Notes under the pieces: generated by a model
What the model was told of the DNA's origin: nothing
Database searches by the model: none
Seen by the model: the letters and a program-made list of their open reading frames with translations, nothing else
Shown here: positions 4,808-41,829 of the stretch, in pieces
How positions within the stretch are numbered: the first letter of the stretch is position 1
Layout of the letters: each line of letters starts with the position of its first letter
Assembly (NCBI RefSeq): GCF_003258705.1
Contig: NZ_CP029480.1
Coordinates: 4,836,001-4,900,000 of the forward strand
From: Arcticibacterium luteifluviistationis
GTDB lineage: Bacteria > Bacteroidota > Bacteroidia > Cytophagales > Spirosomataceae
Reading direction: 5' to 3'
Length of the DNA stretch: 64,000 bases
Program-made: the position numbers and the translations under genes

Positions 4808-7099
4808 ATGACCTCCTCTATCAAAAAACTTGGTAGCAATTTCCTCTTGCTATTCATGGCCATCTTACTTGTTAACTGTTCTTCCCTAACGAAAAACAGT
4901 TTTAGTACAGACTATTTTGAAATACAAATAGATAAGAAAGGCTTTATCACAAGCATGGCAAACACTTCAAAAGAGTTACATCGAGAATATAGCCCTTCCG
5001 ATAAACCATCGCCATTAATGCAGCTTTATGATGGCAAAAAGAAGGTTTATTTTGAGCCCATTGAAGCAAGAATTAATCAGGCAAGCCAAACCATTGAACT
5101 GACTTATGATAACGGTTCTGTCGCTCAAATTTCCTTAACACCTCAAGAAAAATATTTCAAATTAACATTAGAGTCTCTTAACCCTCGTAATGGAATTGAT
5201 GGTATTCAATGGGGACCCTATCATACCAATATCACGAACTTATTTGGCGAAATCATTGGCGTAGCTAGAGATACCAGCGAGGCGAATAATTATGCCATAG
5301 GTATGCTGGCTCTGGACGACAATACCCTAGGTGGTACTTCCGAAACTATAGCCGATGCGGCACCATTTCAGTACATCATTCATTCTCCTGATTCGAAGCT
5401 TTATCCGCTCCCAGATTCCTTACACGAAGGACAAATTTTCACTTTGGGTGGAGATGGAATTAGCGATGTGGCCTTTTATGCCCACAAAGAACCGTATTAC
5501 AGAATCATGTATGGTAATTCCGCCATGGTAGATACTGAAGGTAGAATTTCGATTAATTACCACTCCAGAGACCGGACATTTGAGCGAGAGGTTTATTATT
5601 CACTCATTCCTAATATGCCTGCCAATACGCCAAATCATTTGGAGATTGAACCATTGCCTGGTATTGACTTCATCGGCTCCTCCATTGCTTTGTGGGGTAG
5701 CCCAGACAGCACGGCATTAATGGATGTGATTCAAGACATTGTATTGAAAGAAAACTTGCCCTACCCTACTATTGATGGCAAATGGGTGAAAGACCCTGCC
5801 GCTTTTGTGCCTGACGCCATGACAAATGGAAATTTGAATGACAGTATCATTTCTTATACATCCAGATTGGGTTTTAAGACCATCAGTTTGTACGACCAAG
5901 GTTTTATAAAGCCAGACCGAGGAAATGAAGGATATATAGACGGGAAAAACTTTGAGAAGAAACCAATAAAACTAAGCTCAGGGAACAAATCTCATAAGGA
6001 GTTTTCTGCCATGGCGGCAAAGTATGGCATTACAATAGGAAGAACACCGATAACAAATGCCTTAGCTCCTGGCACAAAAGATGCCAGCCCTGTACCAAGT
6101 GACGATTTGTGTTATCAGCAAAAGCGATTATTGGTGAAAAATATTAGTGCTACCGATACCGTGATTATTGTAGATGACCCAACGCATCTGGAAGAGATAG
6201 CCAGCTGGGAAGGCCATGCCGAAAACCTCAACATGATAAAAATAGGTAAGGAGTTGATTTATTATCTTGGGGTCTCTCAAGAAAAACCATACAGACTACT
6301 AAATGTAAAACGTGGCTACTGGGAAACTTCAGCATCTAATCATCAGGTGAATGATACCATTTACAAATTGCAGGTTACGCTGAATTATGGCTATGATGGC
6401 TTGATACCCAATATGAAGCTTCAGGATAAGATTGCTGAATACTATGCAGACGTTTGTGCTATTAATGGGCTAGGTTATTACGATTTCGATGGACAGGAGT
6501 TTTTGTTTAACAACGGACATGGTTACTACTCGGCAAAACGCTTTTTCGGTAAAATGTTTGAAAGAGCCGAAGTTCTTAACCTCCCTCCTATTCGTTTCAC
6601 GGGTGCCACATTATCAGAAGGCTCATGGCATTATCAAAGCATTTGGAATGTCGGGGGCGGGAAAAACCTGTACGATGTTGACACAAGAGAATGGGGTAGC
6701 ACTACCAGCCAAGGGAAAGACCTCCGTGATGTAACATACGCCAATTTCTTTCCAGTAGGTATGGGAGGTAATTTCCCTATTAAAGCAGAATCGACGGTTG
6801 AACACTATGAACATATTCAAGCTATTTCCGTTGGTGTAGGCACCACATACAGTTTAATTCTAAATCAGAAAGATGTGGAAAGTTGCCCTCAAAAAGATGC
6901 TATTTTCAAAGTAATAAGAACATGGGAAGATGCAAGAGCGGCAAATGCTTTTCCACGCAGTGTCAAAAAACTGCTGACCGACCCTAAAAGGAATTGGAGA
7001 TTAGAAGAAGGCGAAAACAAGGATACTTGGATTCTTAAGGAATTGATGATGGGAGAGGTTAATAAGACATTCGCTTTGCGTAGAAGTGCTGGTTATTGA
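4808..7099 (+). CDS. Large lipoprotein, glycoside-hydrolase-like, family not recognised
   Basis: 763 residues. The N-terminal signal ends in LLVNCSS, a lipobox. The first ~280 residues are beta-rich and resemble the N-terminal beta-sandwich of barrel glycosidases. The middle has alternating strand-helix segments consistent with a TIM barrel (SLYDQGF near residue 360, YYDFDGQEF near residue 558), interrupted by a ~90-residue beta insert (RLLVKNISATD to about NDTIYKL). The acidic DFDG strand end is a plausible catalytic Asp, by analogy with GH27/GH36/GH101-like enzymes. It lies 110 bases before a sulfatase, so a role in sulfated-glycan breakdown is inferred. I do not recognise a named family. 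Confidence 0.55.
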   Translation: MTSSIKKLGSNFLLLFMAILLVNCSSLTKNSFSTDYFEIQIDKKGFITSMANTSKELHREYSPSDKPSPLMQLYDGKKKVYFEPIEARINQASQTIELTYDNGSVAQISLTPQEKYFKLTLESLNPRNGIDGIQWGPYHTNITNLFGEIIGVARDTSEANNYAIGMLALDDNTLGGTSETIADAAPFQYIIHSPDSKLYPLPDSLHEGQIFTLGGDGISDVAFYAHKEPYYRIMYGNSAMVDTEGRISINYHSRDRTFEREVYYSLIPNMPANTPNHLEIEPLPGIDFIGSSIALWGSPDSTALMDVIQDIVLKENLPYPTIDGKWVKDPAAFVPDAMTNGNLNDSIISYTSRLGFKTISLYDQGFIKPDRGNEGYIDGKNFEKKPIKLSSGNKSHKEFSAMAAKYGITIGRTPITNALAPGTKDASPVPSDDLCYQQKRLLVKNISATDTVIIVDDPTHLEEIASWEGHAENLNMIKIGKELIYYLGVSQEKPYRLLNVKRGYWETSASNHQVNDTIYKLQVTLNYGYDGLIPNMKLQDKIAEYYADVCAINGLGYYDFDGQEFLFNNGHGYYSAKRFFGKMFERAEVLNLPPIRFTGATLSEGSWHYQSIWNVGGGKNLYDVDTREWGSTTSQGKDLRDVTYANFFPVGMGGNFPIKAESTVEHYEHIQAISVGVGTTYSLILNQKDVESCPQKDAIFKVIRTWEDARAANAFPRSVKKLLTDPKRNWRLEEGENKDTWILKELMMGEVNKTFALRRSAGY

Positions 7100-32655: not shown

Positions 32656-33852
32656 TTAATAGTTTAATTGCAGCTGTAACCTGAGGGTATTTCCTTGAAC
32701 ATGATGAATAGGTCTTATGCCATCTTCAAAAGTTCGGTCAGAAATCATATAAAGAGCTACTAATTCCAAGTACTTATTATATTGCCACTCTACGCCAATC
32801 TCGGTATCTTTTACTAAATAAGAGCGAGCGTCTATCTCAAACTTCTTTCCGCCATCATAGTATTGATACTTTATAAATGGTATAAAGGTGTGATCTCCTT
32901 TTTCTATTCTATACATTACTTGAGCATAGCCCCCTTTAAGTTTTTTTAGCTCTGTTGTCATTAGTCCTGGGTTAAACTCAGGGCCTTTTCCGATGTTATA
33001 TTCTGTTTGAAAACCAAAAGGTTGAGGATAAACTACCAGTGTTCCGCCAATTCTTTCATCATCAAATAAGTCTTGATTAGAAAGATTCCCCTCACTTAAC
33101 GGTATGGTGTATTTACCTTTATAGGCCTGAATACTAGTTTCTACTAACTGACCGTTAGTAAATTCAAAAGGATAGGTCATTCTAATAACAGCATGAATAT
33201 TATCATTTTTCTCAACCCTCCCAGCTCCTTGTCCATTATAAAGTCCAAAACCAAACATTCCATAGTCGCCAGAACCCTTTAGACCACTTTTAGTCAAAAA
33301 AGCAAGTCGTTTTCTGATTTCAACCGGCGTATAATAGAAGAACACGCCCAAATCACGCTCATCTTTTGCTGCCGAATTCAGGGCGTCATTTCTATCCAAA
33401 GCAAGCCTATTACTGGACGACTGCATGTTTTCAAAACTATAAGGTACCTTACTTTGACCAATTCTGAAGCGATACTCTCTCTCGTCATCTAGTGCTACAT
33501 CGAAATAGGCGTCTTTAAGACTTAAAAGGTGAGAAAGTGAATTCCCCCCCGAAGTAGCCATATCAAATTGCAGATAAGCATACATTTTAGGGGCCACATT
33601 ACCAGCAAATTTAACACGTGATCTTCTTAGAAAAAATCCTCCATCTGCTCCTAATGATTTATCACATTGGTCGCACTCTAGCTGGTCAGTAGTTTCGAAA
33701 AGTCTATTATATCTTAACTGAGTATAACCTCCAAAACCCAATCTTTCATACCAATTAGAACTGACTGATTCAACCTTCTGAGCTATCAGTTCTGTTGTGA
33801 AATTTAGGCATAACAAGACCATTAAGGTCATAGCCTTTCTAAAAAAATCCAT
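32656..33852 (-). CDS. Phosphate-selective porin (Porin_O_P family)
   Basis: 398 residues with a signal peptide (ends near ELIAQ). GFGGYTQLRYNRLFE, GFFLRRSRVKFAGNVAPKMYAYLQFD and the C-terminal FRIG/LQLQLNY beta strands are typical of OprO/OprP-like porins (Porin_O_P). The protein ends in an aromatic residue (Tyr), as outer-membrane barrels do. It lies 62 bases downstream of a PiT-like gene in the same direction, so it probably carries phosphate across the outer membrane to the PiT-like permease, as one operon. Confidence 0.85.
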   Translation of the reverse strand: MDFFRKAMTLMVLLCLNFTTELIAQKVESVSSNWYERLGFGGYTQLRYNRLFETTDQLECDQCDKSLGADGGFFLRRSRVKFAGNVAPKMYAYLQFDMATSGGNSLSHLLSLKDAYFDVALDDEREYRFRIGQSKVPYSFENMQSSSNRLALDRNDALNSAAKDERDLGVFFYYTPVEIRKRLAFLTKSGLKGSGDYGMFGFGLYNGQGAGRVEKNDNIHAVIRMTYPFEFTNGQLVETSIQAYKGKYTIPLSEGNLSNQDLFDDERIGGTLVVYPQPFGFQTEYNIGKGPEFNPGLMTTELKKLKGGYAQVMYRIEKGDHTFIPFIKYQYYDGGKKFEIDARSYLVKDTEIGVEWQYNKYLELVALYMISDRTFEDGIRPIHHVQGNTLRLQLQLNY

Positions 33853-33914: not shown

Positions 33915-34859
33915 TTACTTATGGGAGGCTAGATAGTTTACACAAAGTGCTATTACTACTGAAATAGTCATCCCAATTACTAATTTACCGAAATCACTTG
34001 AGATTATCGGAAACAATTTCTTCATTTTTCTATGCTTAGACAAAGTTGTTATTGCCATTTCTCTTCCGCTCAACAGTCCAATAAATACCCATGTTGTTGA
34101 CATTGGAATAGAGTTAACCTCTTTGAAAAAGAATAAAATAATGGCGTACACAAAGTCAATTATAGTAGCCGATCGTACGTATTTCGTATTAGTTTTTGTT
34201 CTTACTATGTTTTGAATTTTGCCACCACCTTCTCTAAAGATGAAGAAAATAACTGCCGTAAAGAATACCAAGATTAAAATCAATTGAAGGCCTGAAATTT
34301 GTCTAGGTAAAAACACCGAAATATTAGCCACATCATGCGTTAACCAGCTCCACCACAAAAAACCAGTAGAAACCCACTGTAGTTTTAACCATAGCTCTTT
34401 ATTCCTCCCTCTTATGCTGGCTTTTTCATCTAATACCTTAGAAATTAGTATCCAAAATATATACGCACTAACAGCTGATAATGCATAACCTACAATAGAC
34501 TTAAGCAGCATACTCTCTAAAACAACTGTAGAAGCAAAAGTTGCTAGAATTAAAAAAGAAGTAGATACGGGAACTCCCTTCCTAGTCAAAAATATCAGAA
34601 CTACAGGAGCTATTCCATGGTACCATTCTACTTGAACGAAGGGAATCTTTTCTAATCTTCCATAAGATATATCTCCATTATTGACAAACCAGCTATAACT
34701 CACTGTAAGTATCAATCCTCCTGCGGCAAACACCGCTAAGTAATACCAAGGAGTCTTTTTATTAGATGACATCCATGTCCCCAACGTCTGGATGGAATCG
34801 TTCGCTATTACAGAATAGGACGCTAACAAAAAGAAAAAGATAGAAAGGAAATCTTCCAT
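33915..34859 (-). CDS. Short PiT-like phosphate permease paralogue (form A)
   Basis: 314 residues with about eight or nine membrane segments. ANDSIQTLGTW at the N-terminus, GVPVSTSFLILAT, WLTHDVANISVFL and PMSTTWVFIGLLSGRE are duplicated PiT-like signatures (compare NDxxNT/A and PVSTTH in canonical PiT). It is about 180 residues shorter than usual PiT proteins and clearly paralogous to the next gene upstream (35300-36325), lacking about 27 residues in the central loop. Followed by the porin gene. Phosphate as substrate is inferred from family and neighbours; divalent cation or sulfate transport is possible. Confidence 0.6.
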   Translation of the reverse strand: MEDFLSIFFFLLASYSVIANDSIQTLGTWMSSNKKTPWYYLAVFAAGGLILTVSYSWFVNNGDISYGRLEKIPFVQVEWYHGIAPVVLIFLTRKGVPVSTSFLILATFASTVVLESMLLKSIVGYALSAVSAYIFWILISKVLDEKASIRGRNKELWLKLQWVSTGFLWWSWLTHDVANISVFLPRQISGLQLILILVFFTAVIFFIFREGGGKIQNIVRTKTNTKYVRSATIIDFVYAIILFFFKEVNSIPMSTTWVFIGLLSGREMAITTLSKHRKMKKLFPIISSDFGKLVIGMTISVVIALCVNYLASHK

Positions 34860-34930: not shown

Positions 34931-35094
34931 CTTTAAAGACTATTCAATCTTCTTAATGTAAAAGAAATCGCTAAAATCATTTCAACACACCCCTTAAAGA
35001 GCATATTAAGTGCCTTAAAATAAGCAACTTACCCATACCACCTTATACTTGAAGCCACAAAAGTCCCTATTTAGGAACGGTATAAAAATAATCC

Positions 35095-35123
35095 AATATT
35101 AAGAAATTGTTAAGTTTTAAAAC
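35095..35123 (-). promoter_or_regulatory. Shared 29-bp PiT motif, copy 1 (candidate Pho box)
   Basis: On the minus strand this reads GTTTTAAAACTTAACA followed by ATTTCTTAATATT. It is 25/29 identical to the copy upstream of the 36325 gene and 24/29 to the copy upstream of the 38142 gene. It contains hexamers TTAACA and TTAATA 11 bp apart. It lies about 236 bp upstream of the short PiT-like gene start. Confidence 0.6.
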
Positions 35124-35200
35124 TAATCGACGTAAGTGCCTTGTTTGGAGATATTTATCCAAGTGCCATTTTCATAAAAAACTAATGATTAAGGAGTAAC

Positions 35201-35235
35201 AAAAAAAATAGAGCCATCGGAATGATGGCTCTATT
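35201..35235 (-). terminator. Terminator of PiT-like form B gene
   Basis: Perfect 12-bp stem AATAGAGCCATC (35207-35218) with 35224-35235, loop GGAAT. The poly-A at 35201-35208 gives a U tail on the minus-strand transcript. Confidence 0.88.
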
Positions 35236-35299
35236 AAAACTCTTCGCTTTCTTTTTAAGAAAAAAAGTAAATTCTTGCTAATAACTACAAGACTTATAA

Positions 35300-36325
35300 T
35301 TAATATTTTGACGCAATATAATTAACTGCCAAAGCTACTAACACAGAAACCGTCATCCCTAGCACAAGTTTCCCAAAATCATTACGAATGATAGGGAATA
35401 GATTTTTAATCTTTCTGTGTTTTGATAACGTGGTGATTGCCATTTCCCTACCCGTCAAAAGCCCAATAAAAACCCAGGTGGTAGACATTGGAATTGAATT
35501 AACTTCTTTAAAGAAAAACAGTATAGCGGCGTAAACAAAGTCAATAATCGTAGCTGACCTTACATATTTGGTATTGGTTTTTGTCAAAACAATACCCTGA
35601 ATTTTTCCACCACCTTCTCTGAAAATAAAGAAAATCACACTAGTGAAAAATACCAATATTAGAATCAGCTGTAAACCAGAAATCTGACGAGGAAGGAAAA
35701 CCGAAATATTAGCTACATCATGTGTTAACCAGCTCCACCAAAGAAAGCCTGTTGATACCCATTGTAGAGAGCTCCAGTATGATTTTTGAAATTCCTTATA
35801 ATTGAGCTTTTTAACAATACCCTTCCGTTTTAGAGTTTTGTATAGGGAACCTATAAAGCCCGTTTGACTATTGTCTCTAATACTCTTTTTTTCATCCAAA
35901 ACCTTCGATATTGCTATCCAAAATAAATAAGCAGTTACGGCAGAAACACCATAACCAATAATTGATTTAAGAAGCATAGACTCTAAAACTACCGAAGAAG
36001 CAAAAGTAGCCAATATCAAAAATGAAGTAGATACAGGAATTCCCATCCTAGTCATCAATATCAAAACCACAGGGGCAATACCATGATACCAATGAACCTC
36101 TATGTAAGGAATCTTCTCTAATCTTCCGTAAGAGATATCACCATTATTGGCAAACCAACTGTATGAAACAGTTAAGATTAAACCCAATGCCGCAAAGGAA
36201 GCTAAATAATACCAAGGCGTCTTTCTGTTAGAAGACATCCAAGTACCGAGCGTTTGAATAGAATCATTAGCGATTACAGAGTACGACGCTAATAGAAAGA
36301 AAAAAATCGATAGAAATTGATCCAT
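35300..36325 (-). CDS. Short PiT-like phosphate permease paralogue (form B)
   Basis: 341 residues, highly similar over its whole length to the neighbouring 314-residue protein. Same ANDSIQTLGTW, PVSTSFLILAT, WLTHDVANISVFLPRQISG and PMSTTWVFIGLLTGRE motifs, about nine membrane helices. It keeps a charged central loop (GSLYKTLKRKGIVKKLNYKE) that the other copy has lost. It has its own terminator and its own copy of the 29-bp upstream motif, so the two copies are separately transcribed duplicates rather than an operon. Likely phosphate permease; substrate inferred. Confidence 0.6.
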   Translation of the reverse strand: MDQFLSIFFFLLASYSVIANDSIQTLGTWMSSNRKTPWYYLASFAALGLILTVSYSWFANNGDISYGRLEKIPYIEVHWYHGIAPVVLILMTRMGIPVSTSFLILATFASSVVLESMLLKSIIGYGVSAVTAYLFWIAISKVLDEKKSIRDNSQTGFIGSLYKTLKRKGIVKKLNYKEFQKSYWSSLQWVSTGFLWWSWLTHDVANISVFLPRQISGLQLILILVFFTSVIFFIFREGGGKIQGIVLTKTNTKYVRSATIIDFVYAAILFFFKEVNSIPMSTTWVFIGLLTGREMAITTLSKHRKIKNLFPIIRNDFGKLVLGMTVSVLVALAVNYIASKY

Positions 36326-36732
36326 TTATTTAAAATTCTAATTGGAGTTGCCTACTAAATAGGTGATATACCAAGTCTTTAAAAGAATAACTGCAGACTT
36401 GGACACCCAAGTCGCTTAAATTTAAATACATATCAAATCCCTGAATCACAGCCAATTAGATTATATTTCTCTTACCACTTACCTTTACAGCAAATGCATT
36501 TATTCATATTGTTCAGCAAAAGTCACGATTTAATCAAAAGAGCCGTCCGTTTTTAATATTACTAAATTGTTAAGTTTGACAACATTGCCACTAACACTTA
36601 ATCTAAAAAGAGCACACTAGGCTTATCCCTTATGCTTAATTAACAATTTCAATTAGGCTAACAACTATCACTTTAACTCTTAATTCATTACAAGAAAGTA
36701 AAGACTAATTCAAGGAAGCCTCTAAACCGGAC
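36326..36732. other. Intergenic region upstream of PiT-like form B
   Basis: 407 bases. The 29-bp shared motif is at 36555-36583. No TAnnTTTG element was found near the start, and no gene or hairpin of note. Confidence 0.5.
36555..36583 (-). promoter_or_regulatory. Shared 29-bp PiT motif, copy 2 (candidate Pho box)
   Basis: Minus strand GTTGTCAAACTTAACA then ATTTAGTAATATT. It includes a TTGTCA in addition to TTAACA, and an 11-bp hexamer period. It lies about 230 bp upstream of the start at 36325, almost the same distance as copy 1 from its gene. Confidence 0.6.
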
Positions 36733-38142
36733 TCAACCAATTAACCATCGAAATAGAAGGAACAAAGAAGCTGATAAAAAAATAGATACAGGCAATGTTA
36801 GCACCCAAGCTAATGCAATAGATTTCACCGTTCCAGATTGTAAATTCTTTATCCCTTTATTTGCCACCATAGACCCTGCAATACCTGAAGAAAGCGTATG
36901 CGTAGTACTTACGGGCATCCCAAAGCCTGTGGCCAAACCAATGGTTATGGCTGCCACTAACTCCGCAGAAGCTCCTTGGGCATAGGTCAAATGAGTTTTA
37001 CCTATTTTTTCGCCCACTGTCACTACTATCCTTTTCCAGCCAATCATAGTTCCTAGTCCTAAAGAAATTGATATTAACAGAATCACCCATAAAGGTGCAT
37101 AATCTGTTGCTTTACGAATTCCCTTTTCTTCTTTAGTGGCCAGCAGTCCTAATTCTTTTTTATCCCTACTGCTTAAGTTAATATTTTCAGATTGCAGAAG
37201 TTTTTTGCTATTACTAGAAATACTTAGAATAGCCCCTCTGATTTCAAGTTTATTCGCATTCTCATCTTTAAATGCATTTTGCAATACCAGAATATTCGAT
37301 TTAATGCTATTGATTTGAGATTCTTCTGAACTCCCTAAACCAATCGTATCTATTTTCGAAACAATGGCATCAATCGATGTCACTTCAGGTTCCAATTTCC
37401 GAAAATCTTTTATGGATGTTATACCATAAATAGTAGGCAAAATTCCAATTAGAATGAGCATGACAAGGCCAATGCCTTTTTGTCCATCATTTTTACCGTG
37501 AAAAAAACTAACTAGTGTACAGGTTCCAATAAGGATCAATCTTATCCAGGTGGGTGGCACCGTTCCTTTTTTGGGCTCAGAGAACACGATTCTTTGTAGC
37601 TTCTTATTTATAGAGTTTTTCAATAAGAACATTAAGGCAATGGCCATGGAGAAACCCAATAATGGGGCTAGCAAGAGTCCAGTAAAAACACTCTGAGCCT
37701 TTTCCCAGTTTACTGCGGCCAGTCCAATAGTATTTTCTGGCAATAAGGCATATCCTAAACCTACTCCTAAAATAGCTCCTATTAATGTATGAGAACTAGA
37801 AGAAGGCAAGCCTAAATACCATGTTCCAAAATTCCAAATTATTGCCGAAATCAGCATGGCCATAACCATGGCTATGCTGTGGTATATATTTTGGTCAATT
37901 AATAATTCTACGGGAAGTAAATAAATAATGCTAATACCCACTCCTACCCCACCGGTAACAACTCCCAAGAAATTCATTAAACCAGACCAAATTACAGCAT
38001 GGTTTGGCTTAAGCGAGTTGGTATAAATTACTGTAGCTACGGCATTAGCAGTATCATGAAATCCATTGATAAATTCAAAAAGGCATGCAAAAAGCAATGC
38101 AACAACCAAAATCGCTAGCAATCCGGCTTCAATTCCAAACAT
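36733..38142 (-). CDS. pit: PiT-family inorganic phosphate transporter
   Basis: 469 residues from ATG 38142; the frame continues to TTG 38205, but MFGIEAGLLAILVVALLFACLFEFINGFHDTANA is the usual PiT start. The N-terminal signature FINGFHDTANAVATVIYT and the C-terminal repeat GFGMPVSTTHTLSSGIAGSMVANKG with SFFHGKNDGQKGIGL are diagnostic of PiT. About ten membrane helices with a large cytoplasmic loop (about residues 250-350) rich in charged residues. It imports phosphate with protons or as metal-phosphate. A copy of the shared motif lies about 100 bp upstream. Confidence 0.92.
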   Translation of the reverse strand: MFGIEAGLLAILVVALLFACLFEFINGFHDTANAVATVIYTNSLKPNHAVIWSGLMNFLGVVTGGVGVGISIIYLLPVELLIDQNIYHSIAMVMAMLISAIIWNFGTWYLGLPSSSSHTLIGAILGVGLGYALLPENTIGLAAVNWEKAQSVFTGLLLAPLLGFSMAIALMFLLKNSINKKLQRIVFSEPKKGTVPPTWIRLILIGTCTLVSFFHGKNDGQKGIGLVMLILIGILPTIYGITSIKDFRKLEPEVTSIDAIVSKIDTIGLGSSEESQINSIKSNILVLQNAFKDENANKLEIRGAILSISSNSKKLLQSENINLSSRDKKELGLLATKEEKGIRKATDYAPLWVILLISISLGLGTMIGWKRIVVTVGEKIGKTHLTYAQGASAELVAAITIGLATGFGMPVSTTHTLSSGIAGSMVANKGIKNLQSGTVKSIALAWVLTLPVSIFLSASLFLLFRWLIG

Positions 38143-38239
38143 GTATCTACACTTTGACCATTTCAGAAAATCATTAACACAATAATCTTCGAATTGATCT
38201 CTCAAAAGTCATTATAAATCAGGAATATAACCTCAATCC

Positions 38240-38268
38240 AATATTATAAAATTGTAAAGCTTTATAAC
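38240..38268 (-). promoter_or_regulatory. Shared 29-bp PiT motif, copy 3 (candidate Pho box)
   Basis: Minus strand GTTATAAAGCTTTACA then ATTTTATAATATT. It matches the other two copies without gaps; 23 of 29 positions are invariant in all three. It is about 98 bp upstream of the pit ATG, and overlaps a plus-strand TAACTTTG (38265-38272) facing ispF. Confidence 0.6.
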
Positions 38269-40507: not shown

Positions 40508-40550
40508 CCTCTCACACCACCGTACGTACGGGTCTCGTATACGGCGGTTC
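40508..40550 (-). ncRNA. Group II intron domain V
   Basis: Minus strand GAACCGCCGTATACGAG, then CCCGTACGTACGG and TGGTGTGAGAGG. ACCGCCGTA pairs with TACGGTGGT (one G-U), closed by a short loop, the classic catalytic helix. The maturase stop codon TGA (40549-40551) overlaps its first bases. Confidence 0.88.
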
Positions 40551-41829
40551 ATTGAATCTCTGGTTGTAAGCGTTGATAATAATCCAACATACTTTCGTAA
40601 CCTCGTAACCTTAACTTCTCAAGCGTGATGGTAGTCTTTAAAATAGGGCTTTGAGCAGTTGCCCATCCTCCCATTCTAGTTCTGCTCCATCGGTACGCTT
40701 GAATATGGTTTACGCCAAGCCTAATCAGGTTCTTTCGCTTGCGTTCCGGCTTTTTCCAGTCAGTCCAAATACAGTATCTCAACCTATTCCTTAACCATTC
40801 GTCAAGAGCTTTGAGTTTGCCGTGAATACTAGCTAAGCGGTAGTTGTTCACCCATCCTCTATAAACTTCTTTGATTTTGGCTAGTCGCAGGTCAAAACTG
40901 TATGGTTTGGTCTTTTTGGTGGCTGCCTTTAGCTTGCGTTTTAACGATTGCCAGCTACTTTCTTTTACTACAAGTTGGTATTTGCCTTTCTCACCTTTTT
41001 TGTAAGTAGGCACAAAGCCATGACCCAAAAGCTCAAAATTAGAAGGTCTGCGTATGCCGCTTTTTGCCTTGTTGATGGGTAGTTCTAGCTTGTCTCTTAG
41101 AAAGAGATAAACATAGTTACCTATCCGTTTGGCTTCTGCTTTTGACTTGCAATAGATGCTAAAATCATCGGCGTAGCGGATAAACTTTAAGCCTTTACTT
41201 TTGAGTTCTTTATCCAGTTGGTCAAGCATAATGTTTGACAATAATGGACTCAATGGACTGCCTTGTGGTACTCCTTTGCGGCGTTTGTGAAGTTTACCAT
41301 TTTTCATGATTGGTGCACGAAGCCACTTGCGTATTAAACGCAGAGTGATGGGGCATTTTACCTTGTTGTAGATGAGTTGCAGAAGTTTGTAATGCTCTAC
41401 TTCGTCGAAAAACTTACTCAAATCAATATCTACAATATCCTGAAAGCCATCATTGATGAACTTTTGGGCTTGTAAAACTGCTTGGTGCAAATTCCTCTTT
41501 GGGCGAAAACCGTAGCTTTCGTCCTCAAAGTCGAGCTCAAACTTCATAGCCAGTTGCTGACTTACAGCTTGTTGTAACCATCGGTCGGTTACGGTGGGTA
41601 TACCCAGTATTCGGGTTCCACCACTCGCTTTTGGTATTTCTACCGCCAAGATAGGGCTTGGTAAATACTTGCAATTGACAATCGAGGTCAGTATGCATTC
41701 TCCGTGCTGTTCGATGTACGATTTCAGTTCGGTTGTTTGCATCCCGTCGACGCCTGCCGAACCTCCGTTCAACTCAACCTTTCGGCGAGCCTTAGTGAGG
41801 TTTTTAGCTTGTAAAATTTGCTCTATCAT
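40549..41829 (-). CDS. ltrA: Group II intron reverse transcriptase/maturase (LtrA type)
   Basis: 426 residues. RT domain: GGSAGVDGMQTTEL (RT0/1), YLPSPILAVEIPKASGGTRILGIPTVTDRW (RT2), FEDESYGFRPKRNLHQAV, DIDLSKFFDEVEHYKL (RT3/A), RRKGVPQGSPLSPLLSNI (RT4/B), FIRYADDFSIYC with the catalytic YADD (RT5/C) and LELPINKAKSG. The maturase X domain (GIIM) follows, with GWVNNYRLASIHGKLKALDEWLRNRLRYCIWTDWKKPE. No HNH endonuclease domain is present after it, as in class C/D-type introns. It is needed for splicing and retrohoming of the surrounding intron. Confidence 0.95.
   Translation of the reverse strand: MIEQILQAKNLTKARRKVELNGGSAGVDGMQTTELKSYIEQHGECILTSIVNCKYLPSPILAVEIPKASGGTRILGIPTVTDRWLQQAVSQQLAMKFELDFEDESYGFRPKRNLHQAVLQAQKFINDGFQDIVDIDLSKFFDEVEHYKLLQLIYNKVKCPITLRLIRKWLRAPIMKNGKLHKRRKGVPQGSPLSPLLSNIMLDQLDKELKSKGLKFIRYADDFSIYCKSKAEAKRIGNYVYLFLRDKLELPINKAKSGIRRPSNFELLGHGFVPTYKKGEKGKYQLVVKESSWQSLKRKLKAATKKTKPYSFDLRLAKIKEVYRGWVNNYRLASIHGKLKALDEWLRNRLRYCIWTDWKKPERKRKNLIRLGVNHIQAYRWSRTRMGGWATAQSPILKTTITLEKLRLRGYESMLDYYQRLQPEIQ

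Follow-up and report, generated by a model that had tools for sequence, protein, structure and literature searches.

The PHO boxes of PhoB and PhoP in Escherichia coli, Bacillus and Streptomyces consist of two 11-nt units arranged head to tail upstream of phosphate genes, each unit with seven well conserved letters (PMC4415409). For the Bacteroidota, a limited search of the openly licensed PubMed Central (PMC) literature found no Pho box spelled out, the nearest being a TTTAACA motif in Riemerella. A Pho switch is a familiar kind of system whose DNA code in this phylum seems little described. Here we describe a candidate Pho box in a 64,000-nt stretch of the Arcticibacterium luteifluviistationis genome (contig NZ_CP029480.1, positions 4,836,001 to 4,900,000; the window), where a 29-nt motif occurs three times, once upstream of each of three PiT-type transporter genes. 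In our reading, to which we assign a probability of roughly 0.84, each copy would be a Pho box bound by a PhoB-family regulator that activates the PiT-type genes and a Porin_O_P gene at low phosphate. The element is ordinary in kind, and the rule governing its spacing from the promoter is unusual.

In Riemerella anatipestifer, DNA affinity purification sequencing of the OmpR-family regulator PhoP gave a motif in which TTTAACA holds the most conserved letters, and the protein binds its own promoter (PMC9603813). The sites described here are similar in their phylum, in the OmpR-family regulator, in the TTTAACA letters and in the presence of a site before the regulator's own operon. They differ in that the Riemerella motif is ArcA-like and the term 'phosphate transporter' does not occur in the main text of that paper, and the two regulators are likened by features, not by orthology. 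In Flavobacterium johnsoniae, phosphate depletion induces TonB receptors, lipoproteins, PlcP, a glycosyltransferase and PhoB (PMC8115612). The gene kinds of that regulon (PhoBR, OprP, TonB receptor with lipoprotein, glycosyltransferase, PlcP) recur among those considered here; the paper differs in reporting expression, its main text containing none of the words 'Pho box', 'motif' and 'promoter'. The same paper notes the lack of PstSABC in plant-associated Bacteroidetes, in agreement with the present genome. Deletion of a phoB candidate in Bacteroides fragilis left only trace expression of pstC at low phosphate, in a passage that gives no box sequence (PMC3547664), and plcP and glycosyltransferase genes have been described as phosphate-starvation genes (PMC4796936).

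The three 29-mers of the window (GTTTTAAAACTTAACAATTTCTTAATATT, GTTGTCAAACTTAACAATTTAGTAATATT and GTTATAAAGCTTTACAATTTTATAATATT for copies 1, 2 and 3; Table 1) are identical in 23 of 29 columns without gaps. An earlier note on this DNA had reported the copies at these positions and with this agreement, and our recount gave the same result. No three-way 29-mer block in the three upstream regions scores higher than 23, against at most 16 in 60 resamples, which were first-order Markov resamples and not exact dinucleotide shuffles; a repeat search returned the identical 29-nt block. In the 60-nt flanks, identity between copies is 27-37% upstream and 27-57% downstream. Throughout the genome (5,379,839 bases, one contig), a search at up to three mismatches finds the 29-mer at the three window places (0 mismatches) and at one additional place (3 mismatches), there being no place beyond the three copies at up to two mismatches. 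The backwards 29-mer, used as a control at up to three mismatches, has no match in the genome.

Within the motif lies a conserved core, CTTAACAnTTnnTTAAYAT, composed of two TTAACA units 11 bp apart. The window copies carry it as TTnACA and nTAATA at the same distance, as the earlier note had also claimed; many relatives have a perfect TTAACA-N5-TTAACA, of which the nTAATA half in the window is a degenerate form. Bacillus PhoP-type boxes are TTAACA repeats, and the unit found here is nearer to that form than to the E. coli one, which is CTGTCAT versus (C)TTAACAT here. With a weight matrix built from the PiT sites of other genomes (20 distinct sites from 29 loci, with L078, a truncated locus of G024 whose site has one mismatch, left out and two sites of more than three mismatches dropped), the window copies rank first, second and third among 127,962 window positions. 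The remaining part of the 29-mer, GTTnTnAAn (35115-35123, 36575-36583 and 38260-38268, reverse strand), is common to the three copies. A third TTAACA unit inside this part was considered and rejected, being out of the 11-bp register and not found in neighbouring genera; a known riboswitch is unsupported, no Rfam family reaching its gathering threshold between 32000 and 40500.

Each motif is followed by an identical GACTTTTG, which starts 49, 50 and 49 nt after the CTT of copies 1, 2 and 3, respectively, and which the earlier note did not mention. The consensus of the Bacteroidota promoter -7 element is TAnnTTTG (PMC7366714). Taken together with this box, the 29-mer looks like the upstream half of a promoter. 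A pattern joining motif and box by a fixed gap retrieved copy 2 alone, because the gaps are 30, 31 and 30 nt.

Upstream of most of the first 30 PiT loci of relatives there are CTTAACAATTTCTTAACAT-type repeats, and the pattern CTTAACANTTNNTTAAYAT was fixed after these 30, before 60 further upstream regions were fetched. Of 90 full-length PiT genes, 69 are preceded by the core at up to two mismatches (27/30 in the first set, 42/60 in the later one). Controls on the same 90 regions gave 0/90 on the reverse strand, 2/90 with the backwards pattern and 0.4 per 90 in Markov resamples, and none of 960 windows of 400 nt from gene and downstream DNA at 86 loci (L078, L106, L109 and L117 excluded) had a site at this tightness. 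The 90 genes come from 100 PiT places listed in other genomes, the weakest being left out, of which one lay at a contig edge and nine were not fetched; many of the genomes are close kin, and the counts do not represent independent events. All counts rest on tight matches, because looser patterns were not, or hardly, above their controls. A scan of genome contigs gave two distant relatives, whose loci held nothing better than four mismatches to the 20-nt core. What is seen in relatives, then, is two 11-nt direct repeats with about seven conserved letters each (CTTAACAnTTn and nTTAAYAT), placed upstream of PiT genes and of other phosphate-type targets, as in the PHO box definition. The earlier note's proposal of a Pho box as a strong candidate is supported by these PiT upstream regions and by a site before the genome's own PhoB-like gene.

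In a further likeness to the PHO box, that PhoB-like regulator gene (G000:C1:3038867-3039544) carries, 63 nt upstream, a mismatch-free site and -7 box of its own (TTAACAATTAGTTAATATT-N7-TATCTTTG), with an offset of 27 nt. A histidine kinase gene follows, encoding a PhoR-like kinase at about 3039.6 kb (G000:C1), and a gene for a glycerophosphodiesterase is found some 3.6 kb upstream of the regulator gene. The regulator (L045/L379) matched 93 NCBIfam models, of which TIGR02154 (PhoB) and NF053854 (the Bacteroides PhoB model) are the top two; in our reading it would work like PhoB while standing outside formal PhoB membership. A further site in the genome, at 1244.4 kb with two mismatches and a box offset of 27, precedes a lipoprotein and TonB receptor pair that converges on genes for a plcP-like metallophosphoesterase and a glycosyltransferase. 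Taken alone this site is weak evidence, because the own-genome matches of its pattern (2) equal those of the control (2). In one relative (G019) a lipoprotein and a TonB receptor also stand beside plcP-like and glycosyltransferase genes, with a site of one mismatch, and in another (G035) a site follows the PhoB-like gene, with a plcP-like gene and then a glycosyltransferase gene after it. A site at 535.8 kb (L390, G000:C1:530000-540000, position 5758) has an ECF sigma gene on one side and FecR-SusC-SusD genes on the other, an arrangement that recalls, without being proof, the FecR/Pus low-phosphate clusters of F. johnsoniae (PMC8115612). For the sites at 696.6 and 724.1 kb no connection with phosphate is evident. 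We found neither PhoU nor, above the cut-off, PstC in this genome (best PstC match 70.8 bits versus 196.45), and the genes around the weak PstC match read by eye as a molybdate-type ABC system.

The distance between site and -7 box tends towards a regular series. Among 68 PiT sites of relatives with at most two mismatches, on which these counts rest, 51 are followed by a TAnnTT(T/C)G box at 20-70 nt, measured from the site start; it begins at 38 nt in 42 of the 68, and at 39, 40, 49, 60, 68 or 70 nt in others. At 100 other sites the boxes peak at 27 nt (10 sites) and 49 nt (4 sites), with no box in 74. The clusters at 27, 38 and 49 nt are thus 11 bp apart, and dividing the offset by 11 leaves a remainder of 5 for 44 of the 55 PiT-site boxes and for 16 of the 27 boxes elsewhere. 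The window offsets fit this series, as do those of 27 nt at the own PhoB-like and lipoprotein/TonB promoters; in neighbouring genera lacking a strict box, boxes ending in TTTG are visible by eye at about 49-53 nt. The ten sites of the 27-nt class have an additional, third repeat unit that lies 11 bp upstream of the others, matching on average 4.9 of 7 letters versus 0.9-3.0 at other offsets. Such a register, together with the third unit, is what a tandem-binding activator of the PhoB type on one face of the DNA would be expected to require, given the definition of the PHO box (PMC4415409).

With this in mind, one may propose how the element would work. The operator would consist of two 11-bp units like TTAACA, arranged head to tail ahead of a Bacteroidota -7 box. 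Under phosphate shortage the PhoB-like regulator would be phosphorylated by the PhoR-like kinase, whose gene comes just after that of the regulator; the phosphorylated regulator would then occupy the units in tandem on one face of the DNA and recruit RNA polymerase, so that the PiT-type transporters and the Porin_O_P gene would be switched on. Box steps of 11 bp (27, 38 and 49 bp) would preserve the rotational setting of regulator and polymerase. The sequence itself shows the sites with their repeats, their conservation ahead of PiT genes, the register of the -7 box and the one site before the regulator gene; in this scheme we infer the identity of the binding protein, activation as against repression, and phosphate as the signal. 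We would give even odds to a broader proposal, in which the TTAACA-type Pho box of this Bacteroidota order has its -7 box at 27+11k nt (k=0 at regulator and receptor genes, 1 at most PiT genes, 2 at those of the window and its neighbours) and drives a phosphate regulon of PiT carriers and outer-membrane receptors without recognisable Pst or PhoU. Compared with the PHO boxes of E. coli, Bacillus and Streptomyces, the candidate differs in its TTAACA unit, in the Bacteroidota -7 box at 27, 38 or 49 nt, and in the targets seen, which are mainly PiT and outer-membrane receptor genes.

A further scan presupposed no target gene. The pattern CTTAACANTTNNTTAAYATT, with one mismatch allowed, has 182 matches in 99 genomes versus 32 for the backwards pattern. 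Counting distances of up to 450 nt, 32 of the 150 matches listed stand upstream of a PiT gene, 7 of a PhoB-like gene and 2 of a short PiT gene, and at such places none is on the wrong strand. Of the 106 matches beside other genes in other genomes, two overlapping duplicates and a further four were set aside; the remaining 100 were fetched, and the 74 with a suitable downstream open reading frame were scanned. Their products include CarboxypepD_reg (18) and Plug (12) proteins, that is outer-membrane receptors, two response regulators with Trans_reg_C, and one each of a Na/Pi cotransporter, a calcineurin-like metallophosphoesterase and Porin_O_P. The genome scan that the earlier note had proposed favours the Pho-box reading, though not cleanly: it turned up PiT genes, PhoB-like genes and lipoprotein/TonB genes beside plcP-like ones, and was weak for pst. 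Nine pst loci scored above the PstC cut-off, and a PstS-like gene stands upstream in seven of the nine when read by eye.

The same scan gave several observations on other genes. In three relatives (L194, L231 and L284) the site precedes genes for ribonucleotide reductase (ATP-cone), where phosphate control of nucleotide synthesis, or the action of another regulator, is possible. It also precedes genes for small proteins of about 115-120 aa that look alike by eye and have a signal-like start (L228, L237, L238 and L268), and those of a second look-alike group of about 130-150 aa (L210, L224 and L281), in which the one member scanned had no Pfam match. Some PhoB-like genes that lack the site (L108, L110, L118, L119 and L127) have a different 11-bp TTAA repeat, roughly TTAAG-N6-TTAA, which is perhaps a variant operator.

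A number of results weigh against a dedicated Pho box, and several of them would suit the site of another OmpR-family regulator, global or redox-related like the ArcA-like PhoP of Riemerella, with phosphate genes forming part of a wider regulon. Among the 150 matches listed, 109 adjoin other genes, including Plug receptors and three ribonucleotide reductases, others having no obvious phosphate link; in the genome itself, three of the six sites with at most one mismatch lack a sure phosphate link. The Riemerella motif resembles that of ArcA and covers 583 peaks (PMC9603813), and in the Riemerella double mutant pstS rises 8-fold (PMC5399024), so that the link to phosphate is not simple there and TTAACA repeats need not mean PhoB. 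Upstream sites occur at only two of the nine pst loci, each with three mismatches, and OprP was not induced in F. johnsoniae (PMC8115612). The own regulator reaches 208.2 bits with TIGR02154 (cut-off 296.2) and 192.7 bits with NF053854 (cut-off 270). A site with at most two mismatches is present at 8 of 30 PhoB-like genes, the own one and L106 (two mismatches) included, and 22 lack it; autoregulation is therefore not general. However, PiT genes are the commonest single target among the 150 matches listed, several of the other targets are of phosphate type, and the own PhoB-like gene has a site with a box at 27 nt. We consider regulation by such a different protein unlikely.

Other difficulties concern the pattern itself. 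The boxes of the window resemble TAnnTTTG and lack T as their first base; at 17 of the 68 PiT sites the first 70 nt contain no strict -7 box; and the GTTnTnAAn part of the 29-mer is, by eye, not seen in neighbouring genera. Since the first 30 PiT loci served to derive the pattern, tests on them are partly circular. A site-plus-box pattern at three mismatches gave 56 matches versus 44 for the control in 19 genomes and 2 versus 2 in the own genome, and the sites followed up from it were chosen by eye. The motif is AT-rich and the 20-nt core at three mismatches has 92 matches in the own genome versus 139 for the control, as a chance similarity in AT-rich intergenic DNA would have it; such an origin is scarcely credible in view of the 23 identical columns against at most 16 in resamples, and of the conservation in relatives. 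It is also very improbable that the copies are a duplicated constitutive promoter kept by common descent with no dedicated regulator. Here the earlier note, which called the third gene only distantly related to the other two, had gone too far in holding that duplication does not explain the motif: one core promoter in the window may be copied from another, because the two short genes are paralogues and an alignment of copies 1 and 3 shows 74% identity across 70 nt. Against a constitutive promoter, the repeats of relatives stay 38-40 nt ahead of a separate -7 box while the intervening sequence varies, the same repeats precede unrelated genes, and a -7 box alone would need no repeats. A Pho box bound by a PhoB-family protein remains our preferred interpretation.

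The genes downstream of the three copies are listed in Table 1. The two short genes have no Pfam match at E 0.001; in a genome search with PF01384 short gene 1 scores 22.4 bits, below the cut-off of 33.7. A profile of the short-gene family (23 sequences) matches the solved PiT structure 6L85 with an E value of 9.7e-8, and hhalign against the full-length PiT alignment gave a weak match (probability 2%); judged from these comparisons, the label 'PiT-type' is fair for the short genes, though outside the Pfam definition. The Porin_O_P gene would share one transcript with short gene 1. In one relative (G019) the short gene (83793-84728) lies close behind the full PiT gene (84790-86076), and in a genome of a different family (G105) the short gene has its own site (L019, position 829). 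Because a short gene can closely follow a full PiT gene in relatives, it may be a trait of the window's lineage that its short genes have promoters of their own. Further along, an open reading frame at 40549-41829 on the reverse strand resembles, by eye, a group II intron reverse transcriptase.

Table 1. Predicted regulatory elements and associated genes in the window.
Feature	Position	Strand	Remarks
Candidate Pho-box core, copy 1 (CTTAACAATTTCTTAATATT)	35095..35114	-	29-mer extends to 35123; matrix rank 1
Candidate Pho-box core, copy 2 (CTTAACAATTTAGTAATATT)	36555..36574	-	29-mer extends to 36583; matrix rank 2
Candidate Pho-box core, copy 3 (CTTTACAATTTTATAATATT)	38240..38259	-	29-mer extends to 38268; matrix rank 3
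Predicted -7 box GACTTTTG, promoter 1	35058..35065	-	49 nt after site start, 198 nt before ATG
Predicted -7 box GACTTTTG, promoter 2	36517..36524	-	50 nt after site start, 191 nt before ATG
Predicted -7 box GACTTTTG, promoter 3	38203..38210	-	49 nt after site start, 60 nt before ATG at 38142
Full-length PiT phosphate transporter gene	36733..38142	-	PF01384, 293.7 bits (cut-off 33.7)
Short PiT-type gene, copy 2	35300..36325	-	no Pfam match at E 0.001; family profile matches 6L85
Short PiT-type gene, copy 1	33915..34859	-	85% protein identity to copy 2
Porin_O_P (phosphate-selective porin family) gene	32656..33852	-	PF07396, 93.6 bits; 62 nt after short PiT gene 1

If the interpretation proposed here is correct, it would define a concrete operator for phosphate control in this bacterial group, sequence included, along with an initial list of predicted targets, and it would explain how three neighbouring transporter genes are regulated together. 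It would also make phosphate sensing testable in a genome where neither PhoU nor PstC above the cut-off was found. Should a Pho regulon indeed operate there without Pst or PhoU, PhoR would have to sense phosphate outside the classical Pst-PhoU route.

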